From contig DVIS01000022.1 of the NCBI GenBank assembly GCA_018711135.1, positions 1-58,792 of the forward strand: a stretch of 58,792 nt of DNA. Direction: 5' to 3'. How positions within the stretch are numbered: the stretch's first letter is position 1; each line of letters begins with the position of its first letter. Made by a program: the position numbers and the translations under genes. Below, in pieces: positions 1,196 to 20,219 of the stretch. The notes under the pieces were generated by a model that worked only from the letters and a program-made list of their open reading frames with translations, searched no databases and was not told where the DNA came from. The DNA is from Candidatus Onthousia faecavium. GTDB lineage: Bacteria > Bacillota_I > Bacilli_A > RF39 > UBA660.

Positions 1196-3173
1196 CTAAG
1201 TCAAAATAAATATTGTTGTAATTAAACTCTTTCTCATCTAGATTAAGTTCATAACTAGAATTAATATGAGTACATCTTCCATCAAAGTAAGTTTTAAATT
1301 TATCATTTTTAACATTAACTAACGTATAAGGAGTATCTTTATCTATATTTAAGACATTACCTTTAATAAGCATAACCTCAATAGGTCCTTTAGTTTTAAT
1401 AATTAGCGGAATATTACCAAATCTTTCTCTAATAGTTTTGATTAAGTTTTTAAGTTCCAAAGTGTTAAGTTCTACTGATAGAGTTATGGCTTTATAACCT
1501 AATTTATAAAGATAATAAGCAGTATAAGAGTTAAAAACATTTAAGTGGTATGAAGAGATAACATCAGTAGTTGGTTTATATAAGTTACTAACGATACTAT
1601 GATCTTTTAAGACATCTTTAATATGAAAAGGATTATGAGTTATTTCTTGATATAAAGATAAATCTAAAGGTTCAGTATCATTTATCTTAGTAAAGGTTAT
1701 ATCATTTACAACTGGTTCTAAATAATTATTAAGTCTTGCACCAACTAGTCTTTCAGCAAGGGTACGTCTTGCTATATTTAAGTCACCTATTCTAATAAAA
1801 ATATCATCATCAATATCTAAAGAAATGTGTTTAGCTTTAAAGGGGGTATTACCTAGTTTTTCTATTTGTAAGACTAATCTTTCTTTAGATAGAGGATTAT
1901 TAAGAGACTTTTCTACTATATCCCCAGTATAAGTTACTTGGTTAGTACCATCATCAAAAGTCAAAGTGAATCTCTCATATTTTTTAGCTTTGATAGTAAT
2001 ATTGATAGGAACTTTTCTTGTAATAGTAAAGTCTGTTATTTCCAATTTCTTATTGGTTGTCTTTCTAACCTCATCATAACTTGTTAAATTAACTTTATTA
2101 TCAATTTCAATAGTCGCTTGAGGGTTAGCTTTGTTAATTAAATTATCCTTAAGATCATATATATAATTAACAATCATACCTTTATTACTTTCCCTAAAAC
2201 GAATACCATCACCTTGGAGTAATTCTTTATCTAGTTTTATTCTAATCCTATCATCAGTAATATTTATAACTTTACCTAAAGAACTACCAAGATGATTAGG
2301 ACTAGTTTTATTAATTAAATTAGGGTCATTAAAAAGATGTCCTTTAGTAAAGCCACGATAGAAGAGGCTTTTTAAGTCTTCTAGATCTTCTTTAGTAATA
2401 TCTTTACCATCTAATATATTACGATAATATCTTGTTATAAAGTAAACATAGGATGGACTTTTCATTCGACCTTCGATTTTTAAACTGGTAATATTTTTAG
2501 GTAAGTCTTTAATGTTAGAACCAACATTTAATTCTTTCATTGATAAGAGATAACCCTCATCTATTAAAGTTTTATCTTTATATAGTTTATAAGGTAAGCG
2601 ACAGCTTCCTACACATTCACCACGATTGCCACTTCTACCACCTAACATAGAACTAAAAAGACAATTACCAGAATAACTGACACATAGAGCACCATGAACA
2701 AAAACCTCTAGTTCAATTGGAATATCGATCTTTTCGATTTCTTCTTTTGTCATCTCCCTAGGTAAAACTACTCTTTTAACGCCAAGCTCTTTTAATAGTT
2801 TAATAGTTTCATAGGAACTACTATTCATTTGAGTTGAGGCATGAATTGTAAGATTAGGATATTTTTCTAAACAAAGGGAAATCATTCCTAAGTCTTGCAT
2901 TAAGATAGCATCAACACCAAGATTATAGAGGAATTCTACCTCTTCTAAAAAAGAAGATACCTCACTTTCTTTAATAAGCGTATTCATTGTTACATAGATC
3001 TTAACTCCATATATTTTACCAAGACGTAAGACTGTTTTTAATTCTTCATTTGTAAAGTTTTTGGCGTAGCTTCTAGCCCCAAAGTTTTTAAAAGCTAAAT
3101 AAATGGCATCGGCACCACCATTTAAAGCTGCATAAAAAGAATTTATATCCCCTGCTGGTACTAATAACTCCAT
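1170..3173 (-). CDS. U32 peptidase-family protein (RNA hydroxylation type)
   Basis: A 667-residue U32 protein. The N-terminal TIM-barrel starts MELLVPAGD. The family signature EVFVHGALCVSYSGNC lies near residues 155-170, followed by further cysteines (GECVGSC) expected to bind an iron-sulfur cluster. The long C-terminal part resembles the DUF3656/collagenase extension. Although named peptidases, characterised relatives take part in RNA hydroxylation: RlhA acts on 23S rRNA C2501 and TrhP on tRNA 5-hydroxyuridine. The length and C-terminal extension favour an RlhA-like protein, but the RNA target is inference. It is the second gene of an operon, 24 bp after a small membrane protein. GGGG before the ATG serves as ribosome binding site. 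Confidence 0.85.
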   Translation of the reverse strand: MELLVPAGDINSFYAALNGGADAIYLAFKNFGARSYAKNFTNEELKTVLRLGKIYGVKIYVTMNTLIKESEVSSFLEEVEFLYNLGVDAILMQDLGMISLCLEKYPNLTIHASTQMNSSSYETIKLLKELGVKRVVLPREMTKEEIEKIDIPIELEVFVHGALCVSYSGNCLFSSMLGGRSGNRGECVGSCRLPYKLYKDKTLIDEGYLLSMKELNVGSNIKDLPKNITSLKIEGRMKSPSYVYFITRYYRNILDGKDITKEDLEDLKSLFYRGFTKGHLFNDPNLINKTSPNHLGSSLGKVINITDDRIRIKLDKELLQGDGIRFRESNKGMIVNYIYDLKDNLINKANPQATIEIDNKVNLTSYDEVRKTTNKKLEITDFTITRKVPINITIKAKKYERFTLTFDDGTNQVTYTGDIVEKSLNNPLSKERLVLQIEKLGNTPFKAKHISLDIDDDIFIRIGDLNIARRTLAERLVGARLNNYLEPVVNDITFTKINDTEPLDLSLYQEITHNPFHIKDVLKDHSIVSNLYKPTTDVISSYHLNVFNSYTAYYLYKLGYKAITLSVELNTLELKNLIKTIRERFGNIPLIIKTKGPIEVMLIKGNVLNIDKDTPYTLVNVKNDKFKTYFDGRCTHINSSYELNLDEKEFNYNNIYFDLGTVTKKNI

Positions 3174-3197
3174 AAATTACCCCTTTCATTATAGATA

Positions 3198-3692
3198 CTA
3201 AGAATTTGTCTTTGTATTTTTCTTTACTAAAGTTCTACCTGCTTCTTCATATAATACTAACTCTATAGAATCCATATCTCTAGCATCTAGTATATTGATA
3301 TTATCAGGACACCCTTTAGTAATATATTCTTTATTACCTAAGAAATATTTCATTTTCATCATTTCTTCTATTTTTTGGTTTTTCGTTCTTTTAGAACTAA
3401 GGTAAGAAGCATAAATTAAAATGGTGTTTGTAAAAACAACTGGAAAAAAGTTTTCAAAGTAATCAAATGCTCCTGCCATAAGTCTAACGAGAGCATTAGG
3501 ATCTAAAGGATTAGGATCAATTCCTAAGAAATTAGCGGCAGCATTGATACTTATCGGAATAGATGCTAAAACAGTACCCGTAATAGCACCTTTGATTGCA
3601 TATTTTTTATTAATTTTATTAACATAATCAGTAATATTAGTAATTCTAACTTTTTCTTCTATTGCTTTTATTTTTTCTTCTTCTGTTTTCAT
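3198..3692 (-). CDS. Two-pass membrane protein of unknown function
   Basis: A 164-residue protein I do not recognise. It has a charged N-terminus (1-30), a hydrophobic segment at about 33-57, a second at about 83-102, and a basic C-terminal tail with a CPDNI segment. It is probably cytoplasmic at both ends. It is the first gene of an operon with the U32 protein and has its own promoter and an AGAGGTG ribosome binding site. Nothing in the sequence suggests an enzyme. Confidence 0.7.
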   Translation of the reverse strand: MKTEEEKIKAIEEKVRITNITDYVNKINKKYAIKGAITGTVLASIPISINAAANFLGIDPNPLDPNALVRLMAGAFDYFENFFPVVFTNTILIYASYLSSKRTKNQKIEEMMKMKYFLGNKEYITKGCPDNINILDARDMDSIELVLYEEAGRTLVKKNTKTNS

Positions 3693-3717
3693 TATGCACC
3701 TCTTTAAAATTAACTAT

Positions 3718-3746
3718 ATTATATACTAGTTTCTTTTTATTAACAA
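3718..3746 (-). promoter_or_regulatory. Promoter of the small membrane protein / U32 operon
   Basis: TTGTTA (3741-3746), a 17-bp spacer and a perfect TATAAT (3718-3723) on the minus strand, about 25 bp before the first start codon. Confidence 0.65.
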
Positions 3747-3801
3747 TTCTAAATTTAGCGAAAGAAAAAGTACCAAGAATATTTCTTAATACTTAAAGAT
3801 T

Positions 3802-4410
3802 TTATTTATCTTTTATCTCTTGCATCTTTTGATTAATATTTAGCATTTTTTGATCTAAAGTATGGATATCAGTAGCACATTTATGTAAGTAGTCTTTAAT
3901 CTCTTTAGGAACATTACCTTGAAATTTATAGGAAAGTTTGTGTTCTAGACTAGCCCAAAAGTCCATAGCAATCGTTCTTACTTGGATTTCTGCTTCTACT
4001 AAGGTAACACCATCTAACAAGTTTACAGGAACATAAACTAATAGATGATAACTAGAATAACCTGTATCTTTAGGATTTGTTATATAATCTTTTTGCTGGT
4101 GAACCTCGATTTGACTACAGTTTTCAATTAATCTTACAATTTTATAGACGTCAGATAGAAAACTACAAACAATTCTCATGCCAATTAAGTCGTGAACATG
4201 CTTTTCGATATTTTGGATAGTCATAGTGCAACCTTTTTTATTTAGTTTTTTAGCAATACTATCATAACTTTTTATTCTTGTTTTAACATGTTCAACTGGA
4301 TTATAGTTATTTTTGTATTCAAAGTCTTGTAATAAAATACTAATTTGGGTTTCTAATGTTTTTAAAGCAGCTGTATATTTTAGTAATAGCCCTTCAAAGT
4401 CTTCTTCCAT
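3802..4410 (-). CDS. relQ: Small alarmone synthetase (RelA/SpoT-domain GTP pyrophosphokinase)
   Basis: A 202-residue, single-domain synthetase that transfers pyrophosphate from ATP to GDP/GTP to make (p)ppGpp. Typical segments are visible: VKTRIKSYDSIAKKL (about 42-56), HDLIGMRIV (about 73), GYSSYHLLV (about 117) and EIQVRTIAMDFWASLEHK (about 141-158). The C-terminal helix is the one used for tetramer formation in RelQ/YjbM. There is no hydrolase, TGS or ACT domain, so it is a synthase-only enzyme. It is the last gene of the sepF-divIVA-relQ cluster, with 31 bp between it and divIVA. The symbol is by family resemblance; RelP-type is less likely from length and C-terminus. Confidence 0.85.
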   Translation of the reverse strand: MEEDFEGLLLKYTAALKTLETQISILLQDFEYKNNYNPVEHVKTRIKSYDSIAKKLNKKGCTMTIQNIEKHVHDLIGMRIVCSFLSDVYKIVRLIENCSQIEVHQQKDYITNPKDTGYSSYHLLVYVPVNLLDGVTLVEAEIQVRTIAMDFWASLEHKLSYKFQGNVPKEIKDYLHKCATDIHTLDQKMLNINQKMQEIKDK

Positions 4411-4441
4411 TTATGTTCCTTTCTAAAAGACGAAAACTAGA

Positions 4442-4879
4442 CTATTTTTCATCTAAGTCTAGTGTTTCTATCTCTTCTACTACAGCCATTTGTTGTTCAA
4501 CAATTATTTTGAGTTTTCTTTTAAATATTTTAATATTTCTTTCTAAGGTATCTCTTTCTTCTTCAATGCGTCTTGCTTTTAATAAAGCCTCTCCAACTAT
4601 TCTTGAGGCATTATTTTTAGCTTCTTTAATAATAATATCTGCTTCTTCTCTAGCTAAACTTTTAACGTTGTCAGCAGTTTTTTCAGCATTAATTAAAGAA
4701 TGTTTTAAAGTATCTTCCATATTTTCATAATGACTTAATTTATCTTGTAAGACTTTTATTTCTTTCCTTTGCTCTTGACACTTTTTTATGATACCTTCTG
4801 TTTCTTTAATAACATCATTTACAAACTTATTAACCTCTACTTTATTATAACCATTTGCTTCATAGTTAAATTTATCCAT
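4442..4879 (-). CDS. divIVA: DivIVA-family cell-pole/division protein
   Basis: A 145-residue coiled-coil protein. The N-terminal lipid-binding domain has the family pattern FNYEANGYNKVEVNKFV (about 4-20), followed by nearly continuous heptad coiled coil to about 135. DivIVA binds strongly curved membrane at septa and poles and recruits division or wall-growth proteins. It is shorter than B. subtilis DivIVA (164) but complete. The gene is 26 bp downstream of sepF, a classical Firmicutes neighbourhood, and is probably cotranscribed with sepF and relQ. GpsB is an alternative name within the same superfamily; the length and sepF linkage favour DivIVA. Confidence 0.85.
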   Translation of the reverse strand: MDKFNYEANGYNKVEVNKFVNDVIKETEGIIKKCQEQRKEIKVLQDKLSHYENMEDTLKHSLINAEKTADNVKSLAREEADIIIKEAKNNASRIVGEALLKARRIEEERDTLERNIKIFKRKLKIIVEQQMAVVEEIETLDLDEK

Positions 4880-4905: not shown

Positions 4906-5343
4906 TTACCAATCAAATTCATCGTCTTCTGGATCTTGCTTTTTACCTCTTTTAACTGTTTTCGCAGGAGCAGCATCATCACTTATTTCTCCTTCAACGT
5001 TTACATTGTTTGGAGTACATAGAAAAATTCCTCCTCCTAATTTTTGTAAGTCTCCACCAATAGCGTATAAAGTTCCACTTAAAAAGTCAACTATTCTCTT
5101 AGCCTGATCTGGTGTTACTCTTTTTAAATTAACAACAACTGCATTTCTTTCTTTTAAATAATCTGCTATTTGTTGACTTTCAGAATAAGCGCGGGGCTCT
5201 AATAACATCATTTTACTACCAGCAACCCCATTTTCATAACTATATTCTTCTTTACTCACTTTGTAATACTCCTCCTCTTTAACCTCTTCTTCATCGTTAG
5301 TATCATCACTACCTATTAGTTTTCTTAATTTATCTAAAGCCAC
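4906..5343 (-). CDS. sepF: Cell-division protein SepF
   Basis: A 145-residue protein with a short amphipathic N-terminus ([11 protein letters not shown]), an acidic linker (about 14-35), and a C-terminal SepF core (about 45-125) including AVVVNLKRV and a [12 protein letters not shown] strand. SepF polymerises into rings, ties FtsZ to the membrane and helps septum formation. The last 20 residues are charged and probably disordered. It is first in the sepF-divIVA-relQ unit. TAGGAGG provides a strong ribosome binding site, and a TATAAT-like -10 lies at 5369-5374, although the matching -35 is weak. Confidence 0.9.
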
Positions 5344-5408: not shown

Positions 5409-7184
5409 TTAACTATTTTTATACCAAATATTAGTAATATCTACATTATTAGATAGTGGTTCGGGATTAGCTTTTTCAAAATACATATTAATAGGAACTT
5501 TAAAAGCACTACCGAAAGCAATACAATTACCTGGTTTTAAATTTTTAAGTTGATTAGCAACCTCCAAAGAGATACTAGGTACCATTTCTTTAATATAGTT
5601 TAAATCTTTAGGATGTAGTGTTCTTAGAATAATAAAGTTTGAACATTGAGAAATAGCAGTATCAGAAAGTTCACTAGGACGTTGTGTAATTAAACCTAAT
5701 AAGACCCCATATTTACGTCCTTCTTTGGTAATACGATCAAAAATATTATAGCCAAGAATTTCTATATCAGTATCCTTTTGAACATAACGATGAGCCTCTT
5801 CAATAACGATATGATAAGGAACACTACCACGCGCTTCATTACTAACTGCTGTATCAAAGATAAGTTTAGATATAATTTTAGTAATAACTTTAGCCATTCT
5901 ATCTTCAATATAACTAATATTAAAGTTAACTATTTGACATTTAGCACCTAAAGCATTAGTAAATAATTGATCTAAATAAGTATCTCTTGAAATATAGACA
6001 TTGCTATCAAAGAAAACATGACTAGGACTATTAGCAAGAGAATGAAGTCGAACACTTAAAACATTAGCATAGTCATAAACTTTATCACTTTTCAAGATTC
6101 CTTCACTAATTAAAGCAAAGTCCATCGCTGTTTCTAAATCTTTTAGAGTATAAGCAATTAATTTTTGAGGACGATCTAAGACATTTAAATCTTCCATGAT
6201 AAATTGTTTTACAAAATTAACAACAAGTTCCATTTCCATTAGTTTACCAGTCTTATCTATATATAAACACTGTTTAAAAGTTCTAACATAACCAGGTTGA
6301 ACTATTTTAGCATCAAGACTTAAGTCTTTAGTATTGAATTTAGTTAAAACAGCAATGACTTGATCTCTTATTTTAGTAGAACCATGACCGCTTAGAAGAA
6401 TATCTAAAACAGCCCGAGCGATAATATCATTCTTATATTTAATAACCTCAGGATCATCACCAGTTAAGATAGTAACAAGTGAAAGAGCTTTTTCAATAAT
6501 AGGTAACTGATTCGGTGTAGTTACATTAAGAAGTAAAGCTAAGTCATCAACTCCTAATAACCATAAAGGAATATTTAAGATATCACTAGTTGGATCACTA
6601 GGGTTAGGATTTGTGGTATAAGTTTTATAATGGATATTAGGGTTTACTTGATCAATCGAACCTAAAGCCCTTGTATATTCACCATAAGCATCAAACATAA
6701 TGACATTAGCACCTACAGGGCTTTTCTTAGGATCAGCAAAGATATTTTGGAAAATTCTACTAACTGAGAAGGATTTACCAGCTCCACTATTACCTAATAT
6801 TGCAAAATGGTTACTGAAAAAAGCATTGACGTTGACATTTATTTTATAGTTTTGATAAATATTAGAGTAACCTAAAGTAACATCTTCTCTTGTTGGTTCA
6901 TTAGGCCCTAGTATTAAAGCAAGTTCTGCCATATTAACAATTCTAACACTTGATCTAAACGATGGTTTAGCACTAATTCCAGGTAAAAAAACATTGCCTT
7001 TTATTTCTCCTACAATATTAATTTTTAAAGTAGTTTTTGTACTATTAACAATCTCTCCTACTATTTTTGTTTCTCCATCTTCAAAAATAACATGTAAATT
7101 AAGTAAATTTGTCTGCTTTGTTAAATCTATAGTCAAATCTATAGTAACTGTATTATCAATAATCTCTTTAATTGTTCCTAACAT
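5409..7184 (-). CDS. HerA/DUF87-type ATPase (DNA translocase-like)
   Basis: A 591-residue HerA-FtsK superfamily ATPase. The N-terminal 100 residues look like the HAS beta-barrel. Walker A GNSGAGKS is at about 131-138. Walker B precedes VIEEAHRYVQ, and a sensor/arginine-finger region reads LITQRPSELSDTAISQC. HerA proteins form hexameric rings that move along DNA, usually with the nuclease NurA or, in phage defence, with Sir2 or other effectors. No NurA-like or effector gene is adjacent here. It stands between sepF and a surface-protein gene, with its own -10 (TATAAT) and AAGAAGGTG ribosome binding site. The function is therefore open: housekeeping DNA processing or an orphan defence-type ATPase. 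Confidence 0.8.
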   Translation of the reverse strand: MLGTIKEIIDNTVTIDLTIDLTKQTNLLNLHVIFEDGETKIVGEIVNSTKTTLKINIVGEIKGNVFLPGISAKPSFRSSVRIVNMAELALILGPNEPTREDVTLGYSNIYQNYKINVNVNAFFSNHFAILGNSGAGKSFSVSRIFQNIFADPKKSPVGANVIMFDAYGEYTRALGSIDQVNPNIHYKTYTTNPNPSDPTSDILNIPLWLLGVDDLALLLNVTTPNQLPIIEKALSLVTILTGDDPEVIKYKNDIIARAVLDILLSGHGSTKIRDQVIAVLTKFNTKDLSLDAKIVQPGYVRTFKQCLYIDKTGKLMEMELVVNFVKQFIMEDLNVLDRPQKLIAYTLKDLETAMDFALISEGILKSDKVYDYANVLSVRLHSLANSPSHVFFDSNVYISRDTYLDQLFTNALGAKCQIVNFNISYIEDRMAKVITKIISKLIFDTAVSNEARGSVPYHIVIEEAHRYVQKDTDIEILGYNIFDRITKEGRKYGVLLGLITQRPSELSDTAISQCSNFIILRTLHPKDLNYIKEMVPSISLEVANQLKNLKPGNCIAFGSAFKVPINMYFEKANPEPLSNNVDITNIWYKNS

Positions 7185-7250
7185 ATAAACACCTTCTTAT
7201 CCTATTAAGATTATACTATAGATTTTTTTAAGGGACAAGCGGTAATATAA

Positions 7251-7274
7251 GAATCTAGTTACTAAACTAGATTC
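7251..7274 (-). terminator. Hairpin after the variable surface protein
   Basis: A perfect 10-bp stem (GAATCTAGTT with AACTAGATTC) with a 4-base loop lies 5 bp after the stop codon. The following U-tract is weak. Confidence 0.6.
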
Positions 7275-7278
7275 CCTA

Positions 7279-9222
7279 TCATTCCAAAGCTAAGGTGAAG
7301 GGTTGCTCTTTCGTTCCATCACCATTTACAATTTGCACGTTAGATTTTAGATTTAGTGATGGCCAGACGCCGTACGCAATGGACGGACCGTTGACGTTCG
7401 CGTAGCCACCGTTGTTCACGTACCACACGCGAGACACACTATACGGTGTTATGGTCCAATAATATGTATTGTTACCATATCTATCAAATTGTCCTGCCAT
7501 TAATTCTCCTAAGCGTAGTAATCCTACCTTTGCTGTTGTCGTACTTGATGTCAGAATATTATCCGTAGTATTTGTATATTTGGCTAGTTTATATGAGGCA
7601 CCACTTCCCATTGTTCCCAAATACCATGTTGTCGCATCTTCTATCATTGCTATATCTTCATCTGTCATATAGCCATTTTCCGTATTCAAATAGTCATTAT
7701 TCAAAAATGTTCCTATGGTATTACTACTTGAATAATTTACATTTCTATTGCTATCAAAAGTACTTTCTACAAATGTTTCCCCACTCTTTAACGGCTCAGC
7801 ACTCGTTATCTTTGTTCCTGTACCATTTTCATGACTCACTATCCGATATAGATTATTCTCGCCTATTCCAAACCTTATATATTCTCCACTATATCTTGTA
7901 TTTAACATTGTTCCTGAAAGGTCTTTTTCATTATCTCCGTTTAAGCGATATGGGTTATCTGCCGAACCGTCACCATCTACAATTCGAACACTAGATTTTA
8001 GATTTATAGACGGCCGCACGCCAACCGCGTTCGAAGGACTATAGTTGTCCGCGCTGCCACTGCGGTAGACGTAACGCACGTTAGACGAAGAATAAGGAGT
8101 GATACTCCACCAGGAAAGTCCATTATTTAAATAGCCATTACTATAAGTTGTTCCTCTATAGCTCTTTGTATACTCATAAATATTTAATAATCCTACTGCA
8201 GCTGTCACCATTGTTGTTTCAGCTGGCTTACTTGTAGATGTAGTTAATGTAGCATTCCATACGCTATCCATCTTTATAAATTTCTCTGGTTCTCTTAAAT
8301 TACTCAAAAAACCATCCACACTCGTATCATTTAACCACTCTTCCATATAACTACCTGCAAAAGCCGTATTATCATTTGCATTATATGGTATTACACTTAT
8401 ATTCCACTGAGTTACTAACTTAACACTGTTATCACTTGGATCTATTGATACTGCTCTCCACAACTTACCACTATACCAGATATAGTTATTGGGATCTGTT
8501 CCTGTTATAAATGTCTGATCTGGATCTGTTGTATTTATCGCGCCATTTTCTCCTACTCCTGCTAGTAATGTATCTGCAACAGGTTCTCCTTGTGTATTAA
8601 CACCATTAACAACTATCTTACCATGATAATGCTTACCTAAAACATCATTTCCTACCCCTTCTCTTATCCATACATATAAAGTATAAGTAACGCTTTGCCC
8701 TGCTTCTAATGATCCACTAGCAATCTTATAATTAGAACCAGCTACACTAGATAAATTAGTAGGACTACCTGTATCTAATTTATATCTTATATAATCTTTA
8801 TTTAACTGATTATTACTACAATTATCTTGACTTATCATATCAGTATCATCTTGAATATATACCTCATAATCTGCTGCTAAACTACCAGTATTTTTAATTG
8901 AAAAAACATAAGGTGTCAGTTTTAATCCCTCTTCATCACTCATTGGATACTTATCACTTAAATTAATTGTATTACTACTATCTTCTCCAAAATCAATATT
9001 TAAAGTCCCTACTTTTATCACATTATAATCTGCTGATTTTGAAATAGACGTAAAAACAGCATATGCACTACCCAAAGATATAACTGTAACTCCTAATATT
9101 GATAAAAGTGTCACTAAAAGTTGTCTTTTAGCCATCTTTGTTAATGCTGCCTCTTTAAAATTATAACTTTCTTTTTTTTCATCTGTTATTTTTATCTTAC
9201 GGCGTTTACTAAATTTATTCAT
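7279..9222 (-). CDS. Exported surface protein with two lectin-like modules bearing GC-rich variable-region-like segments
   Basis: A 647-residue protein. A basic N-terminus precedes a signal/membrane segment at about 33-55. A TasA/SipW-substrate-like beta domain covers about 60-215. Two related modules follow (about 225-425 and 430-647), each ending in a W-x-ITPYS...YV...P-S-x-N-L-K-S pattern typical of C-type-lectin-like ligand domains. At 7356-7440 and 8011-8090 the DNA rises to about 60% G+C, twice the surroundings. There the two copies differ mostly at first and second codon positions, while the flanking sequence is nearly identical. This is the pattern of diversity-generating retroelement targets. 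No sorting motif is seen at the C-terminus; anchoring is probably by the N-terminal segment. Binding specificity is unknown. Confidence 0.75.
   Translation of the reverse strand: MNKFSKRRKIKITDEKKESYNFKEAALTKMAKRQLLVTLLSILGVTVISLGSAYAVFTSISKSADYNVIKVGTLNIDFGEDSSNTINLSDKYPMSDEEGLKLTPYVFSIKNTGSLAADYEVYIQDDTDMISQDNCSNNQLNKDYIRYKLDTGSPTNLSSVAGSNYKIASGSLEAGQSVTYTLYVWIREGVGNDVLGKHYHGKIVVNGVNTQGEPVADTLLAGVGENGAINTTDPDQTFITGTDPNNYIWYSGKLWRAVSIDPSDNSVKLVTQWNISVIPYNANDNTAFAGSYMEEWLNDTSVDGFLSNLREPEKFIKMDSVWNATLTTSTSKPAETTMVTAAVGLLNIYEYTKSYRGTTYSNGYLNNGLSWWSITPYSSSNVRYVYRSGSADNYSPSNAVGVRPSINLKSSVRIVDGDGSADNPYRLNGDNEKDLSGTMLNTRYSGEYIRFGIGENNLYRIVSHENGTGTKITSAEPLKSGETFVESTFDSNRNVNYSSSNTIGTFLNNDYLNTENGYMTDEDIAMIEDATTWYLGTMGSGASYKLAKYTNTTDNILTSSTTTAKVGLLRLGELMAGQFDRYGNNTYYWTITPYSVSRVWYVNNGGYANVNGPSIAYGVWPSLNLKSNVQIVNGDGTKEQPFTLALE
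7356..7440 (-). other. Putative variable region 1 (C-terminal module)
   Basis: A GC-rich stretch encodes about residues 594-622 of the surface protein. Its boundaries to AT-rich DNA are abrupt. The second copy at 8011-8090 has the same frame and length. The differences fit substitution of adenines in AAC/AAT-like template codons. Confidence 0.55.
8011..8090 (-). other. Putative variable region 2 (first module)
   Basis: A GC-rich stretch encodes about residues 378-404. It shares the invariant codons TAC, GCG and GGC with region 1 but differs at most ligand-facing codons. AT-rich DNA containing AATCTAAAATCTA follows its 3' end in both copies. Confidence 0.55.
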
Positions 9223-9428: not shown

Positions 9429-11252
9429 TTATTTATTCTTCTTAGCATCAGCTTTTTTTCTTTCTTCTGTATTTAATATTTTCTTTCTTAATCTAATATT
9501 TTCTGGAGTCACCTCAACTAATTCATCAGAATTAATATAATCAAGGGCATATTCTAACGTAATAGGTCTAGGTCTTTTAAGCACAACCGTATGATCACTT
9601 CCTGCAGCTCGCATATTTGTTAATTGCTTTCCTTTTACCACATTAACTGCTAAATCATTCTCTCTATTACATTCTCCTATTATCATACCTTCATAAACCT
9701 CAGTTCCTGGTTCAATAAACATAATACCTCTATCTTCCAAATTACCAATAGAATAAGCGGTTGCACTACCATTCTCAACTGAGACTAATACCCCTAACTT
9801 ACGTTCTCCAATATCTACACTTTCATAAGGTTCATAATCTTTAAAAGTATGATTCATAATTCCATAACCCTTAGTTAAAGTCATAAATATTGTTGAAAAG
9901 CCAATTAAACCACGTGATGGAATTGTATAATTTAATCTAACTTGATTTTCAAAGTTAGTCATATTTTCCATCTTTGCTCCTCTTAAACCTAATTGTTCAA
10001 TTACACTACCAACAACATCTTCTGGAACCTCTATTTGTAACTCTTCAACTGGTTCATATTTAACCCCATCTATTTCTTTAATAATTACTTTAGGTTTAGA
10101 TACCTCAAGTTCAAATCCTTCTCTACGCATATTCTCTATTAAAATACCTAAATGTAATTCACCTCTACCAGATACAAGAAAACTCTCATTACTACTAGGC
10201 TCTACTCTTAAAGATACATCTTTTTGGGTTTCTCTCATTAATCTTTCTTCTATTTTTCTAGCTGTCAATATCTTACCATCACGCCCTACAAATGGACTTG
10301 TATTAGCTCCAAAAGTCATCTGTAAAGTAGGTTCATCAATATGTAAAAATGGTAGTGGCAAATTATTACCCGCTTCACACACAGTCTCTCCTACTGAAAT
10401 ATCACTAAGTCCTGCTATCGCTACAATATCTCCCGCTTCTGCACTTTCTATTTCAACTCTATGATAACCATAAAACCCAAATAGTTTTTGAATTCTAAAA
10501 CTCTTAGTAGTTCCATCAAGTCTAATACAATTAACCATCTCACCTGTCTTAATAACTCCATTATGAACTCTACCAATTCCAATCCTTCCTACAAACTCAT
10601 TATAATCAAGTAAAGCAGGTTGAAACTGTAATGGTTTACTATTATCTCCTTTAGGAGCAGGTATTTTATCTATAATTAGATCAAGTAATGGTTCAAAACC
10701 TTTCTTTTGTGTTGTAATATCATCACTTAAACTACAAGTTTCATTAATAGCACTAGTATAAACAACTGGAAAATCTAATTGATCTTCATCAGCACCAAGT
10801 TCAATAAATAAATCTAACACCTCATCAACAACAGCACTACATCTAGCACTAGGTTTATCCACTTTATTAATAACAACGATAGGTTTAACTTTCGCTTCAA
10901 AGGCTTTCTTTAACACAAATCTTGTTTGTGGCATTGCCCCTTCATAAGCATCTACAACAAGAATAACCCCATCTACCATATTCATAATTCTCTCAACCTC
11001 ACCACCAAAATCAGCATGACCTGGTGTATCCAAAATATTAATACGGTAACCATTATAATCTAAAGCAGTTGTTTTCGCTAATATTGTAATACCACGTTCT
11101 TTCTCTAATGCATTAGAATCCATTGATACATTACTAACATCTTCATTATCTCTAAACATTCCTGATGTCTTTAAAATACCATCAACTAAAGTTGTTTTTC
11201 CATGATCTACATGAGCAATTATTGCCACATTTCTTTTTTTCACATTTATCAC
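9429..11252 (-). CDS. typA: Translational GTPase TypA/BipA
   Basis: A 607-residue GTPase of the usual TypA length. G1 is AHVDHGKTTL near residue 14. Switch motifs are ERGITI and DTPGHADFGGEV, and the base-specificity motif is NKVDKPSAR at about 129. EF-G-like domains II, III and V follow, then the TypA-specific C-terminal domain (from about 490). TypA binds 70S ribosomes and supports 50S assembly and stress or low-temperature growth. It ends with a lysine-rich tail. The gene appears monocistronic, with its own terminator overlapping the stop region. Confidence 0.95.
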   Translation of the reverse strand: MINVKKRNVAIIAHVDHGKTTLVDGILKTSGMFRDNEDVSNVSMDSNALEKERGITILAKTTALDYNGYRINILDTPGHADFGGEVERIMNMVDGVILVVDAYEGAMPQTRFVLKKAFEAKVKPIVVINKVDKPSARCSAVVDEVLDLFIELGADEDQLDFPVVYTSAINETCSLSDDITTQKKGFEPLLDLIIDKIPAPKGDNSKPLQFQPALLDYNEFVGRIGIGRVHNGVIKTGEMVNCIRLDGTTKSFRIQKLFGFYGYHRVEIESAEAGDIVAIAGLSDISVGETVCEAGNNLPLPFLHIDEPTLQMTFGANTSPFVGRDGKILTARKIEERLMRETQKDVSLRVEPSSNESFLVSGRGELHLGILIENMRREGFELEVSKPKVIIKEIDGVKYEPVEELQIEVPEDVVGSVIEQLGLRGAKMENMTNFENQVRLNYTIPSRGLIGFSTIFMTLTKGYGIMNHTFKDYEPYESVDIGERKLGVLVSVENGSATAYSIGNLEDRGIMFIEPGTEVYEGMIIGECNRENDLAVNVVKGKQLTNMRAAGSDHTVVLKRPRPITLEYALDYINSDELVEVTPENIRLRKKILNTEERKKADAKKNK

Positions 11253-19401: not shown

Positions 19402-19580
19402 TTTTATTCTCTCCTTCCTATCCTGAATATAGCATATTAAATTTTTTATTACAATAGTTTCGAAATATAATTACCTTTTTTTACAATTGCTTTACTTATT
19501 CGACATTTTTCTAATATAGCGGCTTTAATAATAACTTATTTTAAGTTTAATCATAAAATATATTGGAAAGGAGAATTATA

Positions 19581-20219
19581 ATGTTTGGAGATTCTTGTAA
19601 TAATAATGCTCATCCTCGTTGTCGTTTTTGTTATGTTCAAGGGCCTACTGGTCCTACCGGACCTGCTGGCCCTGCAGGCGGTCCAACAGGAACTACTGGT
19701 CCAACTGGACCAACAGGTGCTACGGGAGTTACCGGACCTACCGGTGCAACTGGGGCCACTGGAGCAACGGGAGCTACAGGTGTAACACCATCTTTAACAA
19801 TTGGCACTGTTACAACTGGAACCCCAGGAGGTACAGCAACAGCAAGCATCACTGGTACTGCTCCTAATTTTATCTTAAGTTTAAGTATTCCACAAGGTCC
19901 AACTGGCCCTACTGGAGTATCTGGACCAACAGGTGCAAGTGGCGCTACCGGACCAACGGGTGCAAGTGGTGTTACTGGTCCTACAGGTGCAAGTGGCGCT
20001 ACCGGACCAACGGGTGCAAGTGGTGTTACTGGTCCAACTGGTGCAAGTGGTGTTACTGGTCCCACAGGAGCAAGCGGTGCTACCGGTCCAACTGGTGCAA
20101 GCGGTGTTACCGGTCCTACAGGAGCAAGCGGTGCTACCGGTCCAACTGGTGCAAGCGGTGTTACTGGTCCAACTGGTCCTACAGGACCAACCGGTCCAAC
20201 GGGTCCTACTGGTCCATAG
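19581..20219 (+). CDS. Collagen-like Gly-Pro-Thr repeat protein
   Basis: The start is ATG 19581, because AAAGGAG ends 7 bases before it. An upstream in-frame TTG at 19563 would place the ribosome binding site inside the gene. The 212-residue product begins with a Cys-rich head (MFGDSCNNN...RCRFC) and has a first GPTG/GATG triplet block (about 21-71). A short non-collagen module (about 72-105) recurs in exosporium-type proteins. A second triplet block holds nine GAS-containing 9-residue units and runs to the end. Such proteins form triple-helical surface filaments, as BclA does. There is no C-terminal trimerising domain, so the fibre may be nucleated by the cysteine-rich head. G+C is well above its surroundings. 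Confidence 0.8.
19934..20170 (+). repeat. 27-bp tandem repeats in the collagen-like gene
   Basis: Nine near-identical 27-bp units encode GAS-(A/V)TG-PT-type nonapeptides. They are prone to slippage, so length probably varies between strains. Confidence 0.75.

Follow-up and report, generated by a model that had tools for sequence, protein, structure and literature searches.

Two probable retroelement-diversified sites in one surface-type protein gene of a Candidatus Onthousia-type genome

Introduction

A gene for a surface-type protein in a small gut Bacilli genome contains two short, G+C-rich stretches, and the question that it raises is whether both were written by a diversity-generating retroelement (DGR) that is encoded elsewhere. 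The gene lies on contig C54, whose whole 58.8-kb stretch is here called the window, of genome G000, a Candidatus Onthousia-type MAG (1.28 Mb, 92% complete). We estimate at roughly 93% the probability that the gene is a DGR target, with two variable repeats (VRs) in tandem DUF6273 modules of a surface-anchored protein, and with template and enzymes of the following kind. In the retrohoming steps that we infer, an RNA containing an AAC-rich template repeat (TR) would be reverse-transcribed by an error-prone reverse transcriptase (RT) with Avd, the RT would misincorporate opposite template adenines, and the mutated cDNA would replace the matching stretch of the target gene. The ligand-contact residues (NNC/NNT codons) would thereby be randomised while the scaffold is kept fixed. 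Because the window copy has no cassette, the machinery would have acted on the gene from elsewhere, or would have been lost from the locus after acting.

Results and discussion

Two islands in tandem modules of the target protein

The target gene (positions 7279–9222, minus strand) is an ORF of 647 amino acids. Its translation, Pfam and fold matches outline an N-terminal hydrophobic helix, a β-rich domain, and 2 C-terminal DUF6273/C-type-lectin-like modules. The hydrophobic N-terminal segment (residues ~30–57; 9052–9135, minus strand; sequence MAKRQLLVTLLSILGVTVISLGSAYAVF) is probably a membrane anchor or signal, and a helix is predicted at residues 22–53 in a full-length structure model, which is of low confidence (pLDDT 47) and was left out of the assessment of the lectin modules. 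We infer that the protein is displayed at the surface and binds a ligand.

Module 1 (7945–8520, minus strand), which includes the first variable repeat, VR-A, was delimited by an alignment of 35 homologues and by Pfam, in which DUF6273 (PF19789) scored above the cut-off at residues 279–410. Module 2 (7282–7944, minus strand), which includes the second variable repeat, VR-B, was recognised by homology to module 1, with which it shares 33% identity. An AlphaFold2 model of module 2 (m137113c798e9; pLDDT 66, pTM 0.69) had phage DUF6273 proteins as its best matches in a fold search (E 1.6e-6). When the model was searched against the PDB, C-type lectins were present among the matches, none of them significant, and the sole significant match was an IgA peptidase structure; a sequence-profile search of the PDB gave no match. 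In published models of phage DGR targets, the DUF6273 domain resembles a C-type lectin and places the VR on loops and a hairpin at the surface (PMC10743442). The VRs would thus lie in a ligand-binding, C-type-lectin-like fold, an assignment that rests mainly on the DUF6273 family because the PDB lectin matches are non-significant and the module model has a pLDDT of 66. With partial ones counted, matches to this protein family number 14 in G000 and as many as 29 in a single sister genome.

VR-A (8012–8094, minus strand) is supported by comparison with a half-template on contig C6 of the same genome and with a VR on contig C1, and VR-B (7361–7443, minus strand) by comparison with the TR of another species (G003) and a template stub on contig C49 of G000. 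The mean G+C content is 29.4% in the window and 35.0% in the target gene; the initial annotation had placed G+C-rich islands at 7356–7440 and 8011–8090, and both are real, with coordinates accurate to within a few bases. Apart from the two islands, the only place in the window where 80-bp stretches reach at least 55% G+C is a collagen-like ORF at ~19.6–20.2 kb. This ORF (19563–20219, plus strand) is composed of Gly-X-Y repeats and is the one other G+C-rich island in the window. The two VR islands share their reading frame and the fixed codons TAY, GCG, GGC, and CCN, between which NNC/NNT codons vary at positions 1 and 2; the alternation of fixed codons with codons varying at their first two positions was seen in both, as had been claimed.

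We compared the target with its syntenic orthologue in G008, the closest species compared. VR-A differs at 28.6% of bases and 46% of residues, and VR-B at 32.1% of bases and 61% of residues, whereas the corresponding figures for the remainder of the target are 12.2% of bases and 11.7% of residues. Because divergence is generally higher in the C-terminal third, this comparison shows the edge of VR-B less sharply than that of VR-A. Differences outside the islands fall mostly on third codon positions (47/43/125 at positions 1/2/3), and those inside are distributed 9/8/7 in VR-A and 11/10/6 in VR-B. An excess of first- and second-position changes is also what ordinary diversifying selection on ligand-binding loops would give. 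That explanation, to which we assign a near-negligible chance, leaves unaccounted for (i) the AAC-rich noncoding template that lies behind orthologues of the gene, (ii) the specificity for TR adenines, and (iii) the exact sharing of non-A positions across different gene contexts, all described below.

Variation is concentrated at template adenines

In TR/VR pairs in cis (13 pairs from 7 species), 150/311 adenines were changed, compared with 49/712 other bases (odds ratio 12.6, p=1e-49 when pooled, a value that overstates independence because the pairs share ancestry). The adenine bias was seen in each of the 13 pairs, with p ranging from 0.0056 to 1e-9. The cleanest pairs are those of G005, in which adenines changed at 10/26 positions and non-adenines at 0/51 between the TR and VR-B, and at 17/26 and 1/51, respectively, between the TR and VR-A; one template therefore fits both sites of one gene in that species.

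The VRs of the window follow the same rule. Against the TR of G003 (Candidatus Onthousia faecipullorum), VR-B agrees at 51/53 non-adenine positions and differs at 12/24 adenines (p=4.6e-6), and compared with the template stub on C49 of its own genome it is changed at 5/10 adenines and 1/21 other bases. VR-A, compared with the half-template on C6, is changed at 5/11 adenines and 1/25 other bases. It has 6–10 non-adenine differences from whole foreign TRs, since the TR version belonging to VR-A is known only in part. With VR-A fitting the C6 half-template and VR-B fitting the G003 TR and the C49 stub, the two VRs appear to go back to two versions of the template.

A test by alignment column gave the same picture. 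Adenine columns were taken as those with A in all five foreign TRs, and the window was not used for defining them. A template query intersected from VR-A and the C1 VR matches at 60/60 positions, a circular result that was left out in favour of the foreign TRs. Among the 11 VRs of G000, pairwise differences were found at 64% of all-A columns and 25% of never-A columns. The contrast was steeper when VR-A was taken with the three VRs nearest to it (60% and 3.9%), and for VR-A and the C1 VR alone it was 67% against 0%, with 47/47 never-A positions shared. Permutation of the columns gave p<1e-5 for the all-A/never-A contrast. Concentration of TR/VR differences at template adenines is a hallmark by which DGRs are recognised, and the initial proposal that both islands are DGR targets is upheld by variation at the adenines of other species' templates, which were not built from these VRs.

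Sister-species loci and the missing cassette

At least 13 of the 35 genomes from the genus encode an orthologue of the RT on C1, 78–86% identical along most of its length; the records of these genomes are Candidatus Onthousia and Bacilli MAGs. In the assembled sister loci, the order on one strand is a two-VR target, a hairpin, the TR, a conserved leader of ~280 nt, a gene for an MSL (MutS-like) protein, Avd, and RT; the TR is intact in 10 sister-species loci. A two-VR target beside the cassette is thus the standard layout in the genus.

The window retains part of this arrangement. A typA/bipA-like GTPase gene (9429–11252, minus strand), 98.8% identical to its counterpart on contig C16 of G008, serves as a syntenic anchor. 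The row in G008 is TypA (98.8%), target (84%), TR, MSL, Avd, and a frameshifted RT. In the window, homology to G008 ends within the last codons of the target, and, according to synteny and the alignment break, a 94-bp gap (7185–7278) takes the place of the TR, MSL, Avd, and RT, that is to say, the cassette is absent; the next gene after the gap encodes an ATPase (5409–7184). Just past the stop codon of the target lies a perfect 10-bp inverted repeat (7251–7274; GAATCTAGTT-TAGT-AACTAGATTC; folding z = −4.1, as DNA), and hairpins stand at the corresponding place in sister loci. The hairpin may be either a terminator or a DGR target-recognition hairpin. A GC-rich 3′ border (putative IMH) is present, and the hairpin is 3′ of VR-B, the VR that was examined for one.

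The leader between TR and MSL (~280 nt; A3, L071:6580–6940, and homologues) is strongly conserved as RNA sequence, and the helix that immediately follows the TR does not vary. Its helices are mostly invariant, and two-sided changes occur in 7/95 pairs, so the covariation is only suggestive of an RNA structure; an Rfam search gave no match.

DGR machinery on other contigs

Three genes of G000 match RVT_1, on contigs C1, C30, and C20. The initial annotation had supposed that a DGR RT is encoded elsewhere, and a search of the other contigs found one together with Avd on C1, the only fitting RT in the assembly. This RT (C1 2772–3719; 316 aa) has the motifs YMDD and IGNYTSQ and has its best match in PHROG RT family 1423 (E 9e-70). 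Directly upstream is an Avd homologue (PHROG 3206, E 3e-7), and further upstream is an ORF of 112 amino acids (ORF112), for which direct Pfam and PDB searches returned nothing useful. In two other genera, distant homologues of ORF112 occupy the corresponding place ahead of Avd and RT, and these score above the Pfam cut-off for MutS domain I (MutS_I, PF01624). ORF112 is on this account probably an MSL, a type of protein already described as a DGR accessory (PMC10053308). The RT, Avd, and MSL genes on C1 are intact. The motifs IGxxxSQ and YxDD typical of DGR RTs were found on both C1 and C30, with a predicted accessory protein beside the RT.

The C30 genes form a second DGR (L024), with one Avd and RT (3125–4530; IGNYTSQ and YMDD in the RT) and four AAC-rich templates (7093–7193, 6764–6873, 5028–5131, and 4699–4805). 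A VR at the contig end (7860–7960) resembles the template at 7093–7193, with changes mostly at adenines. The C30 templates belong to a different sequence family, and this DGR was rejected as the source of VR-A and VR-B.

The third RT (510 aa; locus L003/L036, C20: 22164–22592) is without a DGR layout and adjoins a serine-recombinase-like ORF; it is possibly a defence-type RT.

Probable writing of VR-A in trans

VR-A and the C1 VR belong to different genes, in which they occupy module 1 and module 2, respectively. Their upstream flanks are 35–43% identical, and their downstream flanks are 80% identical over the first 30 bases and 52% over the next 60 bases. The never-A identity of the two VRs is therefore bounded near the template borders in two gene contexts, which points to retrohoming of VR-A in trans from a shared template. 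With no never-A differences between them, the writing would be recent.

Gene conversion among paralogues, shuffling the islands without reverse transcription, could draw on the 14 family matches in G000, and mosaic TR/VR sequences do exist, for example on C55. Such conversion copies existing alleles, however; it would not limit the differences to template-A columns (60–67% versus 0–4%), nor would it stop near the TR borders where the flanks diverge, and we regard it as very unlikely. The retroelement reading is also not extended to the whole family. In G026 and G001, among family homologues, the TR matches only the adjacent VR-B within three non-A mismatches, and most family members are therefore not current targets of that template. 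Dispersed homologues were rejected as proof of massive trans action on the same ground.

State of the template in the genome

An intact TR was not found in the G000 assembly with two different queries; only fragments were recovered. (i) On C1, the last 20 bases of the TR remain, and an IS (L023:357–1835; transposase 530–1579; terminal repeats GGACAGTT) has replaced the whole interval from the end of the VR gene to this remnant; the MSL, Avd, and RT genes next to it are intact. (ii) On C6, a 5′ half-TR is cut by a recombinase element, and the RT cassette is gone. (iii) On C39 (L027:3580–4640), the TR is shortened, and MSL, Avd, and RT are internally deleted. (iv) On C49 (L173:5975–6110), a 5′ TR stub is joined to unrelated genes. 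(v) C55 (L032:1–290) contains a TR/VR mosaic, and C19 (L174:1–300) contains flanks only.

These remnants bear on a rival to current activity, though not to DGR origin, namely that the gene is a fossil target: once diversified by a DGR, with all working templates since lost, the VRs frozen, and the intact RT a leftover. Given DGR origin, we hold this to be a serious possibility, of slightly less than even chance. In its favour, every TR copy detected in the assembly has been disrupted, whether by an IS, the recombinase element, or deletion, and decayed cassettes are frequent in the genus, with a frameshift in the G008 RT and stop codons in the RT of G022 and the MSL of G030. Against it, the C1 RT, Avd, and MSL are intact, and the identity of VR-A and the C1 VR at never-A columns speaks for recent writing. 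All contigs are MAG contigs, with several of the VR loci situated at their ends, and the 92%-complete MAG is fragmented exactly at the TR/VR repeats; it is therefore possible that an intact TR copy is present in G000 and unassembled. In the Thiohalocapsa PB-PSB1 population, similar broken loci had intact TRs hidden in structural variants (PMC10907252). The earlier view that the islands are acted on by a remote RT thus holds in one part, since RT and Avd lie on another contig, and in the other, action at present, it is unproven because the template occurs in the assembly only as fragments.

Relation to known systems

The initial annotation had called it unusual for one gene to have two target sites and for its template to act in trans. 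This cannot be maintained: several VRs per ORF (PMC3521204, PMC6642488), remote targets (PMC4891356), and trans action and degenerate loci (PMC10907252) are already known in other DGRs, and the two-VR layout is standard in the genus. In a survey of multi-VR DGRs, VRs lay within the same ORF in 31/271 (PMC6642488).

Comparison with four published systems revealed the following. (i) The DGR network of Thiohalocapsa PB-PSB1 has several targets, some of them proteins with more than one VR, degenerate loci without RT or TR, and apparent diversification in trans, in which VRs match a remote TR at non-A sites; it differs in its large multicellular-consortium genome, conflict-type targets, and clade 5 RTs (PMC10907252), compared with a small gut Bacilli genome, DUF6273 surface proteins, and breakage of all detected TRs in G000. 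(ii) In Treponema denticola, one TR and RT serve seven target genes at dispersed genomic positions, the system has been gained and lost among strains, and a target of an older TR version is left over (PMC4891356). By contrast, its targets have one VR each as described and it has another accessory gene (PMC4891356), whereas the Onthousia system has two VRs per gene and both MSL and Avd. (iii) The DGR of Marichromatium purpuratum likewise has several VRs in one ORF of tandem lectin-fold paralogues; its targets belong to the FGE-sulfatase family, and its ORF was considered a possible artefact (PMC3521204), whereas the two-VR layout of Onthousia recurs in several species. (iv) In the DGR targets and tentaclins of Faecalibacterium phages, DUF6273 also carries the VR and is modelled as C-type-lectin-like. 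Those are phage receptor-binding or decoration proteins (PMC11792537, PMC10743442), whereas the window gene is chromosomal and encodes two modules behind an N-terminus that resembles a membrane anchor.

The locus would add a gut Bacilli lineage of small genomes to the bacteria that hypermutate a surface-protein family, with two randomisable sites per protein and with target genes able to outlive their own cassette. Across the lineage (35 species), gain, loss, and decay of the DGR are seen side by side.

A recombinase-trio element in the template repeat

The TR of G015 is split by an element with three tyrosine recombinases (slightly overlapping Phage_integrase ORFs) and palindromic ends. The ORFs occupy L207:7631–10785 on contig C8 of G015, and the element ends are 3.38 kb apart. 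Recombinase-in-trio (RIT) elements have been described as three adjacent, overlapping tyrosine recombinase genes of ~3.5 kb with palindromic ends (PMC3414803), and by its gene content and ends the predicted insert matches this description.

A genus-wide search with the end sequence of the element found nine ends in six genomes, with element ends on L207, L231, L232, L233, L235, and L238. The junctions with readable flanks lie in a TR in 7/7 cases, at an identical position and in five species (G000 C6, G008 C20, G009 C4, both ends in G015, and G020 C36 and C82), and the remaining two ends belong to a contig of a sixth species, G024, made up of the element alone. The split point is ..GYGAA|CAACAA... 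Chance is no explanation for seven TR junctions, because the template is ~85 bp in a genome of 1.1–1.7 Mb. The element may therefore target the TR as its integration site, halting mutagenesis, perhaps reversibly, so that diversification of the window target would be gated remotely; we regard this proposal as evenly poised between right and wrong. We found no earlier report of an RIT-type element in a DGR template in the literature searched, which covers part of the field. If confirmed, a recombinase element inserted in the TR would be a concrete way of switching off targeted hypermutation. A second, different recombinase trio lies in the same G015 DGR locus (C8, L207:4146–7120), between the template leader and MSL.
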